A DNA stretch of 64,000 nt from Elusimicrobiales bacterium. GTDB taxonomy: Bacteria; Elusimicrobiota; Elusimicrobia; Elusimicrobiales; UBA9959. The translations under genes were made by a program, and so were the position numbers. The DNA is taken from contig JAQTOU010000001.1 in NCBI GenBank assembly GCA_028713125.1, positions 328,273 to 392,272 on the forward strand, read 5' to 3'. Positions within the stretch are counted from its first letter, which is position 1. Each line of letters begins with the position of its first letter. Positions 28,475 through 63,540 of this stretch are shown here, piece after piece. Under the pieces are notes generated by a model. That model was not told the origin of the DNA and ran no database searches. It saw only the letters and a list, made by a program, of their open reading frames with translations.

Positions 28475-29404
28475 TCAGGGCAGGCTCCAGATCTTCACCG
28501 TCTTGTCCTTGGAGCCTGAGGCAAGAAGCCTGCCGTCGTGGGAGAAAGCCAGGGCCTGCACGCCCGCATCATGGTCCTTCAGCTCCCTGGCAGGCCCTTT
28601 CTGCGCTCCCTGCAGGAACCAGAGCTTTATCGTGCCGTCCTCGCCGCCGCTCGCGAAACGTTTGCCGTCCGGGGAGATCGCCACGGCCCTGGCTCCGCCG
28701 GCATGCGCGGCGAAGGAATTCACGAGCGAGCCGTCGGCCAGCCGCCACACTTTTACGTATCCGTCGAGTCCCGCGGAAACGGCGTAAGCGCCGTCGGAGG
28801 AAATGGCCAGGCCCCTGACCGCGTCCTTATGCGCGCTGATGGTCTTGGTGATCTTCCCGTCGTTCATATTCCAGACCGTGACCGTGCCGTTGCCGTTGCC
28901 GGAAATTACGTAAGTCCCCTTGGGCAGCCCCGCCACGGCGTTCACCGTCTCCACTCCTGATTTCATTGCGCGGTAAACCTCCCCCTCCGGAAAAGTCCAG
29001 ATCCCGACGCAGCCCAACCCCCCGGAAAGCAGGTATTCCCCCCCGGGTGAGAAGGCTACGCTGTAGAGATTGATGCTCTGGCCGTTATAACTCGCAGAAT
29101 TTTTTCCGCCGGGCATGGCCCAGATCTCCACGGTCTTATTATCGGTGGAGGCAAGATACTCCCCGTCCGGAGAAAAAGCCAGCGCCCTGACCGGGTACTT
29201 ATGGCCCACTAATAATTTTTTCTGCTTTGCCGTCTTGACGGTCCACAGGATCACATTGGCGTCCACGCCCGAGGAGGCAAGCAGTTTCCCGTCCGGAGAA
29301 AAAGCCACCGTCTCGACCGGCGCGCTGTGTCCCACAAGGGTAAGCGGCGTCTGCGCTCCGGCCTGGGCCGCGGCGTATAAAAGCACAAAGAAAAAGTATC
29401 TCAT
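28475..29404 (-). CDS. Exported seven-bladed WD40 beta-propeller protein
   Basis: 309 residues. A signal peptide (MRYFFFVLLYAAAQAGAQ) is followed by seven WD40 repeats, each with the 'GH...V..VAFSPDGKLLASSG...I.LW' pattern, such as HSAPVETVAFSPDGKLLAS, HKYPVRALAFSPDGEYLAS, AVAISPDGKRFASGGEDG and HDAGVQALAFSHDGRLLAS. The last repeat ends KDKTVKIWSLP exactly at the stop, so the propeller fills the whole mature protein with no catalytic domain. GGGGGGAT precedes the ATG. WD40 propellers serve as protein-interaction platforms, and here it would be periplasmic. The partner is unknown. Confidence 0.9.
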   Translation of the reverse strand: MRYFFFVLLYAAAQAGAQTPLTLVGHSAPVETVAFSPDGKLLASSGVDANVILWTVKTAKQKKLLVGHKYPVRALAFSPDGEYLASTDNKTVEIWAMPGGKNSASYNGQSINLYSVAFSPGGEYLLSGGLGCVGIWTFPEGEVYRAMKSGVETVNAVAGLPKGTYVISGNGNGTVTVWNMNDGKITKTISAHKDAVRGLAISSDGAYAVSAGLDGYVKVWRLADGSLVNSFAAHAGGARAVAISPDGKRFASGGEDGTIKLWFLQGAQKGPARELKDHDAGVQALAFSHDGRLLASGSKDKTVKIWSLP

Positions 29405-35822: not shown

Positions 35823-35981
35823 AAAAGAGCCGCGAGATGCGAAGTCGGGGCCTACCACAGGGGCCAGGTTAGCAAAAGCCCGTCGGAGAGCGAGGCTTGC
35901 GTAAGCGCCGAGCTCGAGACCGGCAGGCGCGCGCACGGTGTGCGCGACAACGTTTTTGCGTTCCGGTCGCCACGGTAGGCC
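35823..35981 (+). repeat. Dispersed structured repeat, copy A (candidate ncRNA)
   Basis: Outer arms GGCCTACC (35849-35856) and GGTAGGCC (35974-35981) pair. The rest of the long stem is imperfect, with a paired inner end near 35861-35868/35963-35970. Inside lie GCAAAA (35872-35877) pairing with TTTTGC (35954-35959), the conserved CTTGCGTAAGCGC (35896-35908), and hairpin GCGCAC-GGT-GTGCGC (35931-35945). The tail motif found downstream of copies C and D appears here upstream and inverted (35823-35847). It lies between convergent genes. Confidence 0.75.
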
Positions 35982-36010
35982 GCCCGCGATCTTACGCAGT
36001 AGCGCGCGCC

Positions 36011-39000
36011 TTACTTTACGTTCAGCGTTATCCCTGACGAATGTGCCGCGAATTCCGGGGCGTACATCGACTGGATGACGGCGGCGCCGGCTTTGAAGGT
36101 TCCGGGGGTCGTCGGGCGCAAGCGGTACTTCAGGACGTATTCGCCGTGCGGGAGCCATTCCATGAAGAAGTTCGTCAGCGAATCGCGCGGCTCCTCGTAG
36201 CGGCCGAGCTGGTCCCACTGCCAGCCGCTGGTCAGGGTCTCCGCCTCGAAGCCGGCGGCCTTGGGGTCCTTAAGGTGCACATACTCGAACTGGCTGCGCG
36301 TATTCACCGTCAGCTGCACCTCGATCTGGTCGCCAACCGCCACCGTATCGCCGTCGGCCAGGGGCTTAAGCGTATAACTGTCCCCCTCCTTTTCGCGCAG
36401 GAAATATTTCCGCGAAACGTTCATCATCCCCGACGGAGATTCCTCCGCCGTCTTGTCCGTTGTGTAGATCCCGGTAAAAGCCGCGAAAGCCAGCCCCGGG
36501 CCTTTCTTCTCCACGATCGGAGACAGGTCTTTTTTGGTTATCTCAGCCCCGTACTTGGACCAGCGCAGCGGCTTCGCCACCCAGTCGAAAGGCTGCAGCT
36601 GCACGGACTCCGAAGTATTACCCCATTTAAGGTCGAAGTTCTCCGCCTTGTCCAGCGCGCCCTTGGACTTCATCACGTCCAGCAGCGAATAGATCGCCGC
36701 CGCAGAGGCCTTGGTGGACTTCCATTCATTGGCCTTGCGGTTGAAGAGCAGCCAGCGTACGAGGCCCGCGATCTTAGGGTCTTTAGGGCGCACGGCCAGC
36801 AGCGTTCTCAGGATGAAAGCGTGCTTCTCCACGGTGTCGTTATACCAGAGCCAGGAGATCTTCTCCGGCGTCCAGTAAACCCCGGCGATATCATCGGTGC
36901 GGGCCCCGTCCATGGCCCGCGCCAGGTAGCTCTCCGCCTTGACTTTATCGCCCAAGCGCAGGTAGACGTAGGCTGCGTAAGCCTTGCCGAAAGCCGTCAT
37001 CGCGTTCGAATGCTTGTCGGCGTAATCGACCCAGGCCTTGGCGTAGGTCAGCGCGGTTTTGCTCTCCGGCCAGGAAGCGGGAAAGGAAGTCACGACATAA
37101 GCCGCGTAAAGCACCAATGAAGTCTGGTCTTCCTCAGGCTTCATATGCGACGGGATCTCGCCCAGAACGTAGGACAGAGCCTTCTTTGCGGTGTCCTGAG
37201 GTATGTCCACCCCGTAACGCGCGGCCTCCGCCAGGCCCTCCAGCACATAAAGCGTCATGTGCAGGTTCGGGCGCCCCCCCGGGAACCAGGGGAAAGAGCC
37301 GTCTGGATGCTGATAGGCTTTAAGCTTTGAAACAGCGTCTTCCTTCTCTCCGGACACCACTTTCGGGTCCAGCATGTCCACTACGGGCCAATACGACTTC
37401 CGGCCTTTCGATTCCTGCTCCCACGGAGTTTCCATCAGGCTCATCAGCCGAACCGGGTTGTCGCGCTCCCATTCGGGCGTGATCGTGGTCCTCTTCGGTA
37501 TTTTTGCGACCGAGGCGCGCAGCTCCGGATATTTATTATAGAAGCTGTTGGTTATCGCCAGCGGCACATACCGGTTTAGCAGCTGCTCCGTGCATTCGTA
37601 CGGGTAGTGCACCAGGAAGGGCAGGCTGTTAAGCACGGTAAGGATGAGCTGCGGCTGGATCTCCAGGTGCAGAGACTCCACTTCACGCGTGGGGTCCGCG
37701 GCCTCAAGCTCGGGCAGCTTGAAGGTCTTGGAAGAATTGCCGTCGAGAGAAGCCACGCCGGAGGCGATCAGCCGCTCGCGGGAAGGCAGCACTGGCAGGT
37801 CGTTCTCCTGCGCGTCGGCTAGAGCCCCGGCCCTGGCCACGGCGCGAACCTTGTAAGCGGCCGTCCCGCGCGGCGCCAGCATCTCCCAGTATACGGACAT
37901 CGTCCCGTTCGGCTTGACCGTAAAAGGCCGCGAAAGGTCTTTCAGACCGAACTTATCGTGCGCAGCCTCCCCGTCGAGCGTTACGGAGAGCGAGACTTCG
38001 CCGGAGAGCTGGCCGGCGGTGTCGTTGGTGATAACGGCCGTCAGCCTGGAGCTGTCCCCCTCGCGGAAGAACCGGGGAATATCCAGGCGCACCATCAGGT
38101 CTTTTTTAGTCACGGCCTCGGCGCTGAAAGAGCCGCGCCGGGCGCTTTTCGTAAGCAGGTAGGAACTTATCTTCCACGAGGTGAGCCGCTCCGGGATGGT
38201 AAAAGAAAACCTTCCCGAGCCCTTGGAGACCTTTAGCTGGGGATTGTAATAGGCCGTCTCGGAAAAGTCCGTGCGCGTTTTAACTTCAGGCTCCGCGCGC
38301 TTCCGCTCCGGCGCGGACGCCGGGGCCGAGTCCGCCTTAGATTTGCGCGACGTATCTCTTATAGCCATCCCGGGAGCGGCCGCCTCCGCGAGATTTGAAG
38401 CGGCGCCGCCGGACATGGAAGCCATGCCCGCGTCCTGGATAGACAGGCTCTCGGCGTCTCCCTCGAAAGCCAGACTTTTGGCGAACGAGCCTCTGAACGC
38501 CCCTATGCCGCCGTTCCGCCCGTAGAGCCGCGAAGACCCTATCCGCAGCGAAGCCATATGTTCTTCGCCGGTGGCCAGCCTGAAGGCTTCCAGCATGCGC
38601 TGTATCAGCCCGGTACGGATAGGCAGAGCCACCGCGTAGGGAGTGAACAGCGAGCCCCAGCCCTCTCCGGAGGAGCGCCTGGCGGGATAGAGGCCGTCGC
38701 CCCAGAAACCGGCGTCTCGGCCGTAATATTCAAGCGACCGGTCGAAGATCTTTACCAGCGCCTCGCCGAAAGCCGGCCTGCCGGCCGAATCCTTCGCTTT
38801 AAGAAGCCAGGAGGCCCTCTGCCCCGGGGCGAGAACCTTGTCGTAGTCGAGCGAAAGCGAAATATTCTTGTCTTTAAGCGGGACCTCCGCCCCGTCCATG
38901 GCGGAATAAACCTTGAAGTCCCCGGCCCCGAGCCAGCGCAGGCCGAAACCGCCGCGGTGTTCCGCGGAGACTTTCAGGCTATAGACCGAAAGGCCGCCTT

Positions 39001-41992
39001 CCTGCAGGGTTTCGCGTGAAAGCATGAAACTTCCCGCCAGGATCTCGACGTATTTAACACCTTTCAGGGACGAAGCTCCGATAAGGGCGCGGGCCGTCTC
39101 GCCGGCCTGGTAGGAGTCATGTTCGAACAGGGCGACCGGCGGCAGCTTGAGGCCCGCGTTCCTGCGGCCCTCCGCCGAAGCTGAAATAATTATGAGCTGT
39201 GACTCGCTCTCGCCTCCCCAGGGGTCGGAGGCTTTGAGCTTAAGGCGGTAAACTCCCGGCGCCAGGCTCTTGAAGCTTATTTTGGCCGCGCCGTCCTTTA
39301 GGAATTCCACTTTCCCTTTCCCGGCCTGAGGTCCGTCGGGAACCTGGCTGAATGCCTGCTCCAGCGAAGGGTTATTGCCGAAATACCCCCACTCGCGCCG
39401 CCCGCCTTCTTCGGAGGGAGCTTTCTCCAGCCGGTAAAGAGCGTACTCGCCGGCCCCCGCCTGCTGTATATCGTTGAGGTCCATAAGGCGCGCGTTCACA
39501 ACGGCCGATTTTTCGGGGGTAAAGAACCCGGCGTCCGGCTTTATGTCGAACAAATAAGCCTTGGAACCGGCCCTGTAGGAGCGGGAGTCGGTTATAGTGC
39601 GCCCGCCGGCGTCGCGCGCCTCCGCCTCTACCTGGTAGGAGGACGGGTAGGCCGCGTAGGCCGCGCTTTCCGCCTGCGGCGTAAAGCTGAAACTGAACTT
39701 GCCGTCGTCGCCGGTTTTGATCTCGCCCGAGGCGACTTCGGAGGAGCCGGAAGCCCCGTAGAACCAGGACCAGTAGCGGCAATACCAGGGGATGTAGCGG
39801 GAGCGCGTAATGCGGTACTTAACGGCCGCCCCGGGCACCGGCGAGCCGAAATAATACTTCACGTCGCCGCTTACCTCCGCTTTCTCGCCGTAGCGGTAGG
39901 GCTTCTTCGCCTCGCCGAGCTTCACTTCGAATTCCGGCCGCTTGTACTCCTCCACTCCGAAACCCGCCGCGCCGCTGAAATTATAGCCGTACTCCGTTAT
40001 TTGCGCGGTAACCGAATACCCGCCGAGCAGCCGTCCCTCGGGGATCTTGAAAGACCCCGCCGCGCTGCCGAGGCCGGTAAATGGGAGCGTCTTTTTGTAA
40101 ACCTCCTGCCAGTTCGGGTCGCGCGCGGTAACGGAAAGCTTGCCTTTTCCGTCGTAAACCCTGAAGCCGCGCGGCTCGCGGAGCAGGGCGGTAGCCTTGA
40201 ATTTAACTTCCTGCCCCGGCCTGTAAACGGGGCGGTCTGTTTCCACGAAAATACTGACGGGCTGCGGAACGTTCAACCCGGCCGAAGCCTGGGAGTTCCA
40301 GTAAGCGTAAGCACCGCCGACACTTAAAAGCGGGTCGAGGGAGAAATATTCGTTGGAAGGATAGGACACGGGAAAAGTCTGGGCGAAGGGCGCCGCGCCG
40401 TCGGGGCCCGACTTCAGGGCCGCCTTCTGCCAGGAGCCGTAGTTAGACCTGTGATAGAAAACGTCGATGTCGGCGCCGGCCAGCGGCTTGCCGGTAAGCG
40501 CGTTGACCGCGTAGAGGCGGAACACGTCGGAAGAAGCCTGCCGCCCCGGGGCCAGAGGGTCGTAGAGGAAGTCCTCCGGGTCGCCTTTTATGCCCGAAGT
40601 TCCAAGCAGGAAGATATCGGTGATATTAAGCGTCACCGCTTTTATGAGAGAGGAGCCGTCCTCGAACCCGCTGTCGCCGGAAGCGATGACTATATAGAGG
40701 CCTTTTTTGAATCCCGGGACCGCAACGTCCTGGTCCTTGTACTGGTACGGGGCAGGGTAGGAGATCTTCTGCTGCCATTCGAGGTCCGCGCTCCTGGCAA
40801 GGAAGTTCTTCACCGCCTCCTGCTGGAGGTACTTTACCCTGCCCCAGGCCTGGTCGCCGTACTGGCCGATGGAGGAGAGCTCCTGCGGGGAAGTTTTATA
40901 TGCCTTGAAATAAACAGAGGGCAGGTTCCGGACATTAACCCTGAGGGTCTTAAGGCCGGGCGGCGGCGCGAAAGAGGCGGAAAGTTCCAGCGAGGGCATC
41001 TCTATCTCGGCGCGTATTTTTGAGCAGAGAATGGCCGGCTTTGACCTGGGCGCTTCAGCTTCGGCTTTTTTACAGAGCTCTACCGCGGCTTTATAATCCG
41101 GCGCCTCCTGGTGCAGGGCGGCGGCGTGGTAGAGCGCCCAGCTCCGCGCGAGGGCCGTCTTAAAAGAGGCCGCCCACCCGTTAAGCGTGCCCAGGGCCTT
41201 GCCCCGCAGCGCGGCGCGGTCAAAAGGCGCCACCCTGTTGCCGTGCTCGAACGGGATCAGCAGGCGCTGCAGGCGCCAATATTCGCGCGCGAAATCCATG
41301 GAGGAGGAGCTCATCCCGGCGGCGTCCTCGAAGATGGCCGCCGCTTTCAGGGCGGCCGCGGCGGAGGCGCTGTAATCCGCGCTATAGGCGGACTCCGCGA
41401 ACCTGTCGGCCGGCGGAAGCGCGCCGCCGGCTTCGGACTCATCCAGGAGGTAGCTTGTCCAGCGCAGGACCGCGAAGTCCCAGAGCGTCGGAGTATAGGC
41501 CAGTTCGGCCCCCTTGAGGTCCATGAAATAATCCTGACCCTCAAGGCGGTATTTAAGCAGCTCCCCCCTCAAGTCCCAAAGCGAGTTATAGTCGGCCTCG
41601 ATAAGGCCGCGCCACTGGGCGGAGGTCAGCTTGGTAACGTCTTTCACTCCTTTCTGGATATCCGCGGGCAATGAATAGCCATACTGCCGCAGGAACAGCC
41701 GGCCGGTCTCCGCCCTCAGAAGCAGGAACCTGCCCTGCCACAGGGAGTCGGGCGGCAGTTTCATATCCGAGAGGCGCTGCGCAGCTTCGCCGTAGCGGAA
41801 CAGCAGAGATTCGCATTCGGCGGAGCGGTAAAGCGCTTTCAGCCCGTCCTCCTGCCCGACGGCGGCAGCGGAGGAATAGATCGTCAAAGCCTCCTGGTAC
41901 AGGTTCTTTGAAAAGAGCTGGTCCGCCTTCTGCAGTTCGCCGGCCGCGGACGCGAAGCATGGAAACAGAAAAATGGCAAGGATCGCTTTCAT
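36011..41992 (-). CDS. Bacterial alpha-2-macroglobulin with intact thioester motif
   Basis: 1993 residues with a Sec signal peptide (MKAILAIFLFPCFASA) and no lipobox. A helical N-terminal region of about 330 residues (tetratricopeptide-like) precedes a chain of macroglobulin MG domains (for example PVSIFVETDRPVYRPGQEVK, the MG 'DRPVYRPGQ' signature) and a low-complexity bait-like stretch near residues 1190-1270. The A2M domain follows (YYNPQLKVSKGSGRFSFTIP). The thioester site is CTEQ in YPYECTEQLLNRY (about 1466), within the alpha/alpha toroid (LMSLMETPWEQE, HPDGSFPWFPGGRP). Such proteins trap proteases in the periplasm. The usual pbpC partner is absent; the gene lies 20 bp after murB. Confidence 0.92.
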   Translation of the reverse strand: MKAILAIFLFPCFASAAGELQKADQLFSKNLYQEALTIYSSAAAVGQEDGLKALYRSAECESLLFRYGEAAQRLSDMKLPPDSLWQGRFLLLRAETGRLFLRQYGYSLPADIQKGVKDVTKLTSAQWRGLIEADYNSLWDLRGELLKYRLEGQDYFMDLKGAELAYTPTLWDFAVLRWTSYLLDESEAGGALPPADRFAESAYSADYSASAAAALKAAAIFEDAAGMSSSSMDFAREYWRLQRLLIPFEHGNRVAPFDRAALRGKALGTLNGWAASFKTALARSWALYHAAALHQEAPDYKAAVELCKKAEAEAPRSKPAILCSKIRAEIEMPSLELSASFAPPPGLKTLRVNVRNLPSVYFKAYKTSPQELSSIGQYGDQAWGRVKYLQQEAVKNFLARSADLEWQQKISYPAPYQYKDQDVAVPGFKKGLYIVIASGDSGFEDGSSLIKAVTLNITDIFLLGTSGIKGDPEDFLYDPLAPGRQASSDVFRLYAVNALTGKPLAGADIDVFYHRSNYGSWQKAALKSGPDGAAPFAQTFPVSYPSNEYFSLDPLLSVGGAYAYWNSQASAGLNVPQPVSIFVETDRPVYRPGQEVKFKATALLREPRGFRVYDGKGKLSVTARDPNWQEVYKKTLPFTGLGSAAGSFKIPEGRLLGGYSVTAQITEYGYNFSGAAGFGVEEYKRPEFEVKLGEAKKPYRYGEKAEVSGDVKYYFGSPVPGAAVKYRITRSRYIPWYCRYWSWFYGASGSSEVASGEIKTGDDGKFSFSFTPQAESAAYAAYPSSYQVEAEARDAGGRTITDSRSYRAGSKAYLFDIKPDAGFFTPEKSAVVNARLMDLNDIQQAGAGEYALYRLEKAPSEEGGRREWGYFGNNPSLEQAFSQVPDGPQAGKGKVEFLKDGAAKISFKSLAPGVYRLKLKASDPWGGESESQLIIISASAEGRRNAGLKLPPVALFEHDSYQAGETARALIGASSLKGVKYVEILAGSFMLSRETLQEGGLSVYSLKVSAEHRGGFGLRWLGAGDFKVYSAMDGAEVPLKDKNISLSLDYDKVLAPGQRASWLLKAKDSAGRPAFGEALVKIFDRSLEYYGRDAGFWGDGLYPARRSSGEGWGSLFTPYAVALPIRTGLIQRMLEAFRLATGEEHMASLRIGSSRLYGRNGGIGAFRGSFAKSLAFEGDAESLSIQDAGMASMSGGAASNLAEAAAPGMAIRDTSRKSKADSAPASAPERKRAEPEVKTRTDFSETAYYNPQLKVSKGSGRFSFTIPERLTSWKISSYLLTKSARRGSFSAEAVTKKDLMVRLDIPRFFREGDSSRLTAVITNDTAGQLSGEVSLSVTLDGEAAHDKFGLKDLSRPFTVKPNGTMSVYWEMLAPRGTAAYKVRAVARAGALADAQENDLPVLPSRERLIASGVASLDGNSSKTFKLPELEAADPTREVESLHLEIQPQLILTVLNSLPFLVHYPYECTEQLLNRYVPLAITNSFYNKYPELRASVAKIPKRTTITPEWERDNPVRLMSLMETPWEQESKGRKSYWPVVDMLDPKVVSGEKEDAVSKLKAYQHPDGSFPWFPGGRPNLHMTLYVLEGLAEAARYGVDIPQDTAKKALSYVLGEIPSHMKPEEDQTSLVLYAAYVVTSFPASWPESKTALTYAKAWVDYADKHSNAMTAFGKAYAAYVYLRLGDKVKAESYLARAMDGARTDDIAGVYWTPEKISWLWYNDTVEKHAFILRTLLAVRPKDPKIAGLVRWLLFNRKANEWKSTKASAAAIYSLLDVMKSKGALDKAENFDLKWGNTSESVQLQPFDWVAKPLRWSKYGAEITKKDLSPIVEKKGPGLAFAAFTGIYTTDKTAEESPSGMMNVSRKYFLREKEGDSYTLKPLADGDTVAVGDQIEVQLTVNTRSQFEYVHLKDPKAAGFEAETLTSGWQWDQLGRYEEPRDSLTNFFMEWLPHGEYVLKYRLRPTTPGTFKAGAAVIQSMYAPEFAAHSSGITLNVK

Positions 41993-47909: not shown

Positions 47910-47919
47910 CGCGAAAACA

Positions 47920-48047
47920 GGTCCGACGCGCGGGCCGGATAAGCAAAACCTTCCGGAGGCTGAGGCTTGCATAGCGCCGAAGCCGGAGGAGGAGTGAGGG
48001 CACGGTGTGCCCGAACGCGTTTTGCGTTCCGGCCCGTGTGGCGGACC
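47920..48047 (+). repeat. Dispersed structured repeat, copy B (candidate ncRNA)
   Basis: Terminal 19-nt arms 47920-47938 and 48029-48047 pair with 16 Watson-Crick pairs, two G-U pairs and one mismatch. Inside are GCAAAAC (47943-47949) pairing with GTTTTGC (48019-48025), CTTGCATAGCGC (47966-47977) and hairpin GGGCAC-GGT-GTGCCC (47998-48012). It lies between the convergent YgiQ and RNase D genes and lacks a clear tail. Confidence 0.8.
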
Positions 48048-48067
48048 GACAGCAAGCAGTGTAATAT

Positions 48068-56763: not shown

Positions 56764-56940
56764 GGGGCGGCAGGGGTATGGGTTTGGAGCGACCTCTCGG
56801 GATGGAGCGAAGCGACAGTTCCCCGCCCCGAGCTTGCATAAGCGCGAGGGCCGAGAGAGGAGGCGCGGCCACGGTGTGGCCGACGCCGTGAGCGACGGGC
56901 CCATACCCCTGCCGCCCCGACTTAGCATCTCGCGGTCTTT
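56764..56940 (+). repeat. Dispersed structured repeat, copy C (candidate ncRNA)
   Basis: Terminal arms of 19 bases (56764-56782 and 56900-56918) pair perfectly. Inside are CTTGCATAAGCGC (56833-56845), hairpin GGCCAC-GGT-GTGGCC (56867-56881) flanked by GGCG/CGCC, and CTCTCGG/CCGAGAG arms. The GCAAAA motif is replaced. The tail CGACTTAGCATCTCGCGG with a TTT end is at 56918-56940. It lies between tandem plus-strand genes. Confidence 0.82.
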
Positions 56941-63319: not shown

Positions 63320-63381
63320 TTTAGAAGGAGATTCGGCACTGCTGCTTCCCGGCTAGAGTAAAGACGCGCAATATCTGTGGA

Positions 63382-63533
63382 GGGGCGGCAAGGGGACCGG
63401 GTTAGCAAAACCGTCGTTGAGCCCGACGCTTGCGTAGCGCGGAGGGCGAATACCGAGCGAGGCCACGGTGTGGCCGAGTGTGTTTTGCGTTCCGGTCCAC
63501 TTGCCGCCCCGACTGGGCATCCCGCGGTCTTTT
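63382..63533 (+). repeat. Dispersed structured repeat, copy D (candidate ncRNA)
   Basis: 19-base arms (63382-63400 and 63492-63510) pair with one mismatch. Inside are GCAAAAC (63405-63411) with GTTTTGC (63482-63488), a CGTCG/CGACG hairpin (63412-63428), CTTGCGTAGCGC (63429-63440) and hairpin GGCCAC-GGT-GTGGCC (63461-63475). The tail CGACTGGGCATCCCGCGG with a TTTT end is at 63510-63533. It lies between the convergent MBL-fold and ABC genes. Confidence 0.82.
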
Positions 63534-63540
63534 ATTGTCT

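Follow-up and report, generated by a model that had tools for sequence, protein, structure and literature searches.

The repeat that we call copy A raises the question of how a palindromic unit can come to lie the wrong way round beside its own tail. An earlier note on this DNA had claimed that a tail motif found to the right of copies C and D is present in reverse complement to the left of copy A, while the inner motifs of A keep the plus orientation. In the window (the whole stretch of DNA analysed, 64,000 nucleotides from an uncultured Elusimicrobia bacterium), the tail motif CCGCGAGATGCNNAGTCGGGG, with up to three mismatches allowed, has three matches, compared with 0.06 expected by chance, and these lie at copy A (35830-35850, plus strand, no mismatches), copy C (56915-56935, minus strand, no mismatches) and copy D (63507-63527, minus strand, one mismatch). 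The tails of C and D are thus on the right of their units, as claimed, and that of A is an exact match on the left; its presence stood, and the position 35823-35847 first proposed for it was off by a few bases. All inner motifs of A (GGTTAGCAAAA, TTGCGTA, CACGGTGTG and TTTTGCGTTCC) are in the plus orientation, the same as in B and D. The relevant features are listed below, where T denotes a unit whose end carries the tail (...GGTAGGCCCCGACTTCGCATCTCGCGGTCTTT) and N a unit whose end has no tail (...GGTAGGCCGCCCAGC), both labels having been coined in this analysis from printed sequences; bit scores refer to covariance model R1.

35823..35853, minus strand: T tail and outer base stem (AAAAGAGCCGCGAGATGCGAAGTCGGGGCCT), pointing outward to the left, with its boundary as in the orthologue in genome G242
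35854..35867, no strand: left arm ACCACAGGGGCCAG, identical to T-unit arms; the presumed inversion/deletion junction lies in or beside it
35867..35948, plus strand: 82-nt core (GGTTAGC...GCGCGAC), matching the T units of sites 5 and 14 at 82/82 positions and reversed relative to the tail
35949..35985, plus strand: N-unit 3' segment (AACGTTTTTGCGTTCCGG...GGTAGGCCGCCC), matching the N unit of site 5 at 36/37 positions
35844..35987, plus strand: copy A, whole unit, 104.3 bits, 30/35 pairs, arms 8/13
47915..48053, plus strand: copy B, solo and tail-less, 132.9 bits
56765..56940, plus strand: copy C, a C-type unit (GGGGTATGGG arms), T tail at right
63377..63535, plus strand: copy D, T tail at right, 141.5 bits
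35463..35795, plus strand: upstream neighbour ORF, 110 aa, convergent with the downstream gene and adjoining the site in relatives too
36011..41992, minus strand: downstream neighbour ORF, 1993 aa, which by appearance encodes an alpha-2-macroglobulin-like protein

Elsewhere in the window, a 63-base direct repeat occurs four times in diverged form at positions 28517-29335, probably inside a coding gene.

Each unit is a hairpin of ~140 nt. Covariance model R1, built from 70 aligned units, has 140 positions, 35 pairs and two inner hairpins, and the order within the unit is arm, (C)CGGGTTAGCAAAAC, a hairpin with the loop TTGCRTA, the hairpin CACGGTGTG, GTTTTGCGTTCCGG and the complementary arm. When the copies were used as BLAST queries, A gave 77 matches in its own genome, C gave 68, D gave 62 and B gave 46, and R1 found at least 101 units there at E<=0.01, a minimum because 150 of 2314 first-look candidates were scored. 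The sequence of the arms varies from copy to copy with complementarity kept: at 22 of the 35 pairs, both sides change in some copy, and 98.2% of pairing cells pair, compared with 33.6-48.7% when the partners are slid, a covariation test somewhat favourable to the structure, which was taken from that alignment. The plus strand has 32 G-U pairs versus 17 A-C pairs; the copies are not independent, and we drew no conclusion about RNA or DNA. No curated Rfam model of a structured RNA matched the repeats at the gathering score, either in the window (0 matches) or in six repeat loci, where four weak matches at E<=5 were all far below that score. A terminator or orientation effect was also rejected, as the 77 repeat sites showed no strong preference of gene context (48 tandem, 20 convergent and 9 divergent by a crude GC3 gene call).

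Units are often combined. Two of them are held by 23 of the 77 sites, in the order minus then plus in 23/23, so that the GTTAGC sides face one another. The divergent pair is commonly a T unit, with its tail, and an N unit; T-T pairs also occur and measure ~360-410 bases when empty. By the motif used, 38 of the 72 units compared with A had no recognisable 3' end of either the T or the N type.

In the rest of the genome, the tail sits at the TTTTGCGTTCC side of its unit. A survey of the 77 repeat sites fetched from the same genome gave 34 tail matches, and at 31 of these the unit reads towards the tail, some being called from few markers and one (C11:78369) having mixed markers owing to a neighbouring unit within the look-back distance. 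Copy A alone (1/34) reads away from its tail. The other two matches are a decayed site with mixed markers (C24:9776) and a tail match without a unit (C24:21464) that is probably due to chance. The earlier note had allowed that the tail match at A might itself be fortuitous, or that many copies might have tails on both sides. The tail of A (query positions 5-50) is 96% identical to C26:408146-408190 (E 1.8e-13), and since it matches tails elsewhere in the genome, we concluded that it is real. Two outer tails are indeed present in T-T pairs, where each is part of its own unit; neither condition was therefore borne out in the form given.

Copy A is a mosaic, with a T tail and outer arm at its start, an N end at its finish and a single core between them. 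The T units of sites 5 and 14, to which the core is identical at 82/82 positions, have their own tails on the opposite side, and the 3' part of A, identical to the N unit of site 5 at 36/37 positions, is matched likewise at site 39. The best N-type match to the core reaches 77/82, and A-like cores occur within the N-type units of sites 13, 45, 11 and 36, at 76-77/82. As the earlier note had proposed, we compared orthologous loci in relatives and found that G242 carries, between the same two convergent genes, a whole T(-)-spacer-N(+) pair with its T unit in the normal orientation and with the same outer boundaries as A. Flanks included, identical columns between A and G242 number 63/81 in the left part and 54/69 in the right part; the core of A matches the T unit of G242 in 72/82 columns and its N unit in 62/80. 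(Loci L147 and L202 almost certainly come from one genome and were counted once.) The stretches compared measure 225 bases in A and 410 bases in G242, and A is short of about one unit plus the spacer. The core match to T units and the comparison with G242 together suggested that the core of A is most likely T-derived and reversed relative to its tail, the remainder of the pair having been lost.

These observations bear on the mechanisms suggested in the earlier note. Its statement that the core is bounded by inverted repeats holds for the T units resembling the core of A, which have the arms ACCACAGGGGCCAG and CTGGCCCCTGTGGT. Inversion also finds support in the identity of the core to oppositely tailed T units and in the normal T unit of G242; a clean flip does not, because the right end is that of an N unit and sequence has been lost. 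Folding-linked transposition, offered as an alternative to recombination, is unneeded, given that the outer boundaries of A and G242 coincide.

We therefore regard A as probably a rearranged relic of a divergent T(-)-spacer-N(+) pair, whose T core was inverted within its arms and now runs on into N-unit sequence. With the mosaic, the orthologous whole pair and the common outer boundaries as fixed points, the event may be reconstructed as follows. The T core would have been reversed between its short inverted arms and then joined to the N-unit 3' half, with loss of the remainder of both units and of the spacer. One route to this would be template switching, in which the nascent strand hops strands at the arm ACCACAGGGGCCAG, copies the T core backwards and makes a second hop at the CACGGTGTG hairpin into the N unit. 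The other would start with crossing over near CACGGTGTG between the T and N cores, which are inverted relative to each other; this would turn the middle round, after which two 14-base copies of the arm would be in direct orientation and a deletion could occur between them. Each route would yield exactly A, and we grade both as simplest. The product is damaged: its arms pair poorly, at 8/13 positions (the fewest among the 70 aligned units, with one other tied), and its fold is not significant (z -1.17, versus -4.70 for D, -4.42 for C and -4.13 for B), which suggests that the event broke the hairpin. Against this reconstruction, the donor, site 5, is a paralogue standing in for the ancestor at the A locus, and the core type of the G242 N unit differs from the one that the ancestor of A would have had.

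That A is a collapsed pair gains weight from the uniform order of the 23 two-unit sites and from what is found at its locus in other genomes, which we compared in the 28 genomes (the studied one included) that have the neighbouring large gene. A complete T-N pair is also present in G240, where the core of the T unit is by eye of a different, G-rich type. In G301 and G207, whose contigs stop there, an N unit or an N end lies on the side where A has it. In G303, a T tail is directly joined to an N end, and other collapsed forms are present in G266 and G106; those of G303 and G266 count for the collapsed-pair reading. G203 and G224 have pairs in the opposite order, four genomes (G271, G219, G297 and G118) have an intergenic gap of <=48 bases with no repeat, and the remaining genomes have single units, two T units, other sequence or a contig end. 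The A locus is old and has often been restructured. Reversed cores are also found elsewhere. A survey of relatives started from 30 tail loci and, leaving out the own-genome locus L254 and tails with no adjacent R1 unit, retained 20 tails paired with an adjacent R1 unit, 18 of them normal and 2 reversed. At one of the latter (L237, in G142), a T tail and outer arm run directly into a plus core that has an N end, the junction falling inside GCAAAAC, an independent fusion similar to A; the other (L251, in G302) is a single unit with its core reversed beside its tail.

Several further observations were made in relatives. Units at L158, L206, L208, L212 and other loci have the G-rich core type (GCACCCGTTGGGGAAGGGGGGCCCC...), and their tails and spacer ends are of the kind found in the units analysed here. 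At the site of copy B (window 47915-48053), G242 has a repeat in the opposite orientation with other arms and another core type (L303:1326-1464), and in G278 (L326) the unit ends, GTTAGC versus GCGTTCC in other copies, have become perfectly palindromic (GGTTAGCAAAAC ... GTTTTGCTAACC). The same orthologous site has insertions of ~800 bases at L306, L314, L315, L318, L320 and L321; several begin near AATAGGGACAG and, by our impression from reading them, seemingly encode a Y1-type transposase.

The inversion itself is the point on which a deletion-only explanation differs. According to it, the plus core of A is that of the N unit in its own orientation, the 5' part of which had earlier become T-like by gene conversion, and nothing but the tail and outer arm of the T unit survived. 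The unit does adjoin the N end and have the N orientation, L237 in G142 could equally be a simple deletion between direct repeats of 7 bases (GCAAAAC), and N units with A-like cores exist (up to 77/82), so that conversion of N by T and then a mere deletion would lead to almost the same sequence. This explanation would still require a T-to-N exchange that stopped at GCGCGAC, even its best N donors match the core at 5 to 6 fewer bases than the T donors do, and the joint would have scant homology unless the N arm were also T-like. We consider it possible, and lean against it; as it shares with the inverted-core reading the view of A as a collapsed T-N pair, our confidences in the two overlap and do not sum to one.

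The other explanations fare worse. The 82-base identity of the core to two other sites is of the kind at which short-read assemblies fail, and the genome is a draft in 39 contigs, so an assembly or amplification artefact joining two repeat copies has to be weighed; we hold it to be unlikely, as the collapse of long identical repeats does not produce the joint (tail, 14-base arm, GGTTAGC), the alignment with G242 has the same boundaries in both flanks, and comparable joints exist in other genomes. We give still less credence to a programmed switch, in which a recombinase acting on the arms would flip the core and both orientations would coexist in the population. Inverted repeats do bound the core, and reversed cores make up 1/33 unit-bearing tails here and 2/20 in relatives, but A is structurally broken and has lost sequence, its two neighbouring ORFs do not look like recombinases, and the arms differ between copies and so offer no common recombination site. 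Equally improbable in our judgement is that a unit transposed independently to a place next to an old solitary tail. Solo units often lack a tail, as the 38 of 72 units with neither type of 3' end attest, but the right end of A is an N end whose flank is as in G242, and this shared right boundary disfavours the idea.

R1 had matches in 37 of 294 genomes of the phylum, comprising 22 of the same genus (the studied genome included), 12 of other genera in the same family and 3 in the class, where the matches were weak; R1 matched nothing in 12 listed genomes of the family. The repeats are thus nearly confined to one Elusimicrobiota family (34/37 positive genomes). Within the genus, the tail pattern occurred in 25 of 32 genomes, and read backwards it occurred in none. 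The parent family is one of non-autonomous, mobile-like palindromic elements. A RAYT/Y1 transposase was rejected as the mover: Y1_Tnp is present in 49 of 59 family genomes, including genera with no R1 matches, while the repeat-bearing genomes G211, G152, G231 and G244 have no Y1_Tnp match (a limited observation, as they are 90-93% complete), and seven loci with Y1 genes, own genome included, have no R1 match at E<=0.01. An integron integrase was likewise rejected, as TIGR02249 exceeded its curated cut-off in 0/32 genus genomes; weaker matches were seen in 32/32 of these and also in 14/14 controls.

In a search for an autonomous copy, the tail sites scanned in G298 and G262 yielded cargo ORFs and no transposase. 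G298 has seven T-T elements, each with one AT-rich ORF between two inverted units; both tails were located in L248 (L248:520-1560), L264, L265, L266 and L286, and one tail each in L278 and L285. The inner G+C content of these elements is 0.40-0.50, versus 0.55-0.61 for the locus, and their ORFs (89-300 aa) look unrelated and by appearance mostly membrane-like or secreted. None of the seven cargo proteins had a Pfam match over the curated cut-off, and the two compared with plasmids gave no match. It is conceivable, though we rather doubt it, that the T-T elements represent a novel class of mobile gene cassettes moved by a putative enzyme, with turned cores such as that of A as by-products of the strand hopping that would also preserve arm complementarity within each hairpin as the arm sequence changes.

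With ~100 copies in this genome and orthologous sites in some thirty relatives, the repeats amount to a natural experiment on the rearrangement of palindromic DNA, in which whole pairs, collapsed pairs and turned cores are visible stages that show how such repeats are shuffled. Strong base-pair covariation among copies is no proof of a functional RNA, since copying templated by a hairpin can also generate it. Should the cargo-bearing forms be mobile, this phylum, known here chiefly through metagenomes, would have cassette-like elements of its own.

We found no description of these repeats in the open-licence literature, and Elusimicrobia go unmentioned in the main text of the RepRanger paper (PMC12306157). 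Short T-T pairs (~360-410 bases, with inverted tails at both ends) resemble MITE-like non-autonomous transposons; terminal inverted repeats are present in the T-T pairs L264-L270 and L272, though not all copies have both. No target duplication was recognised by eye in 15 printed pairs, and no transposase was found between tails in the loci scanned. Long stem-loop repeat families such as ERIC and YPAL likewise consist of imperfect palindromes, intergenic and about 100-170 bp long, with a stem-loop fold (PMC2267715), whereas the units described here are modular, with T and N forms in divergent pairs, and their arms differ between solo copies yet stay complementary.

Two known systems come nearer to copy A. 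According to sections of two reports, template switching between inverted repeats inverts the spacer and homogenises the arms (PMC8604942, PMC8794818) and would predict a turned core and changing complementary arms like those seen here; the perfect palindrome of G278 fits such homogenisation, and PMC8794818 also provides an explanation of the covariation in which selection need not be invoked. The cases in those sections are inversions of a few bases and rRNA hairpins, whereas the turned stretch here is about 80 bases. REPINs and BIMEs, which are REP doublets associated with RAYTs, share with our repeats many dispersed intergenic palindromes, inverted doublets and a less conserved spacer, as set out in part of PMC3116915, and the inverted-doublet arrangement is that of our 23 minus-then-plus sites. 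The REP/REPIN palindrome is given as 20-40 bp in an excerpt of PMC3733652, whereas our units are ~140 nt with two internal hairpins; unlike REPINs, they had no tie to Y1 transposases that we could find, and they have tails and cargo-bearing forms. REPIN singlets are regarded as remnants of doublets (in the same part of PMC3116915), and this is the closest parallel to copy A.
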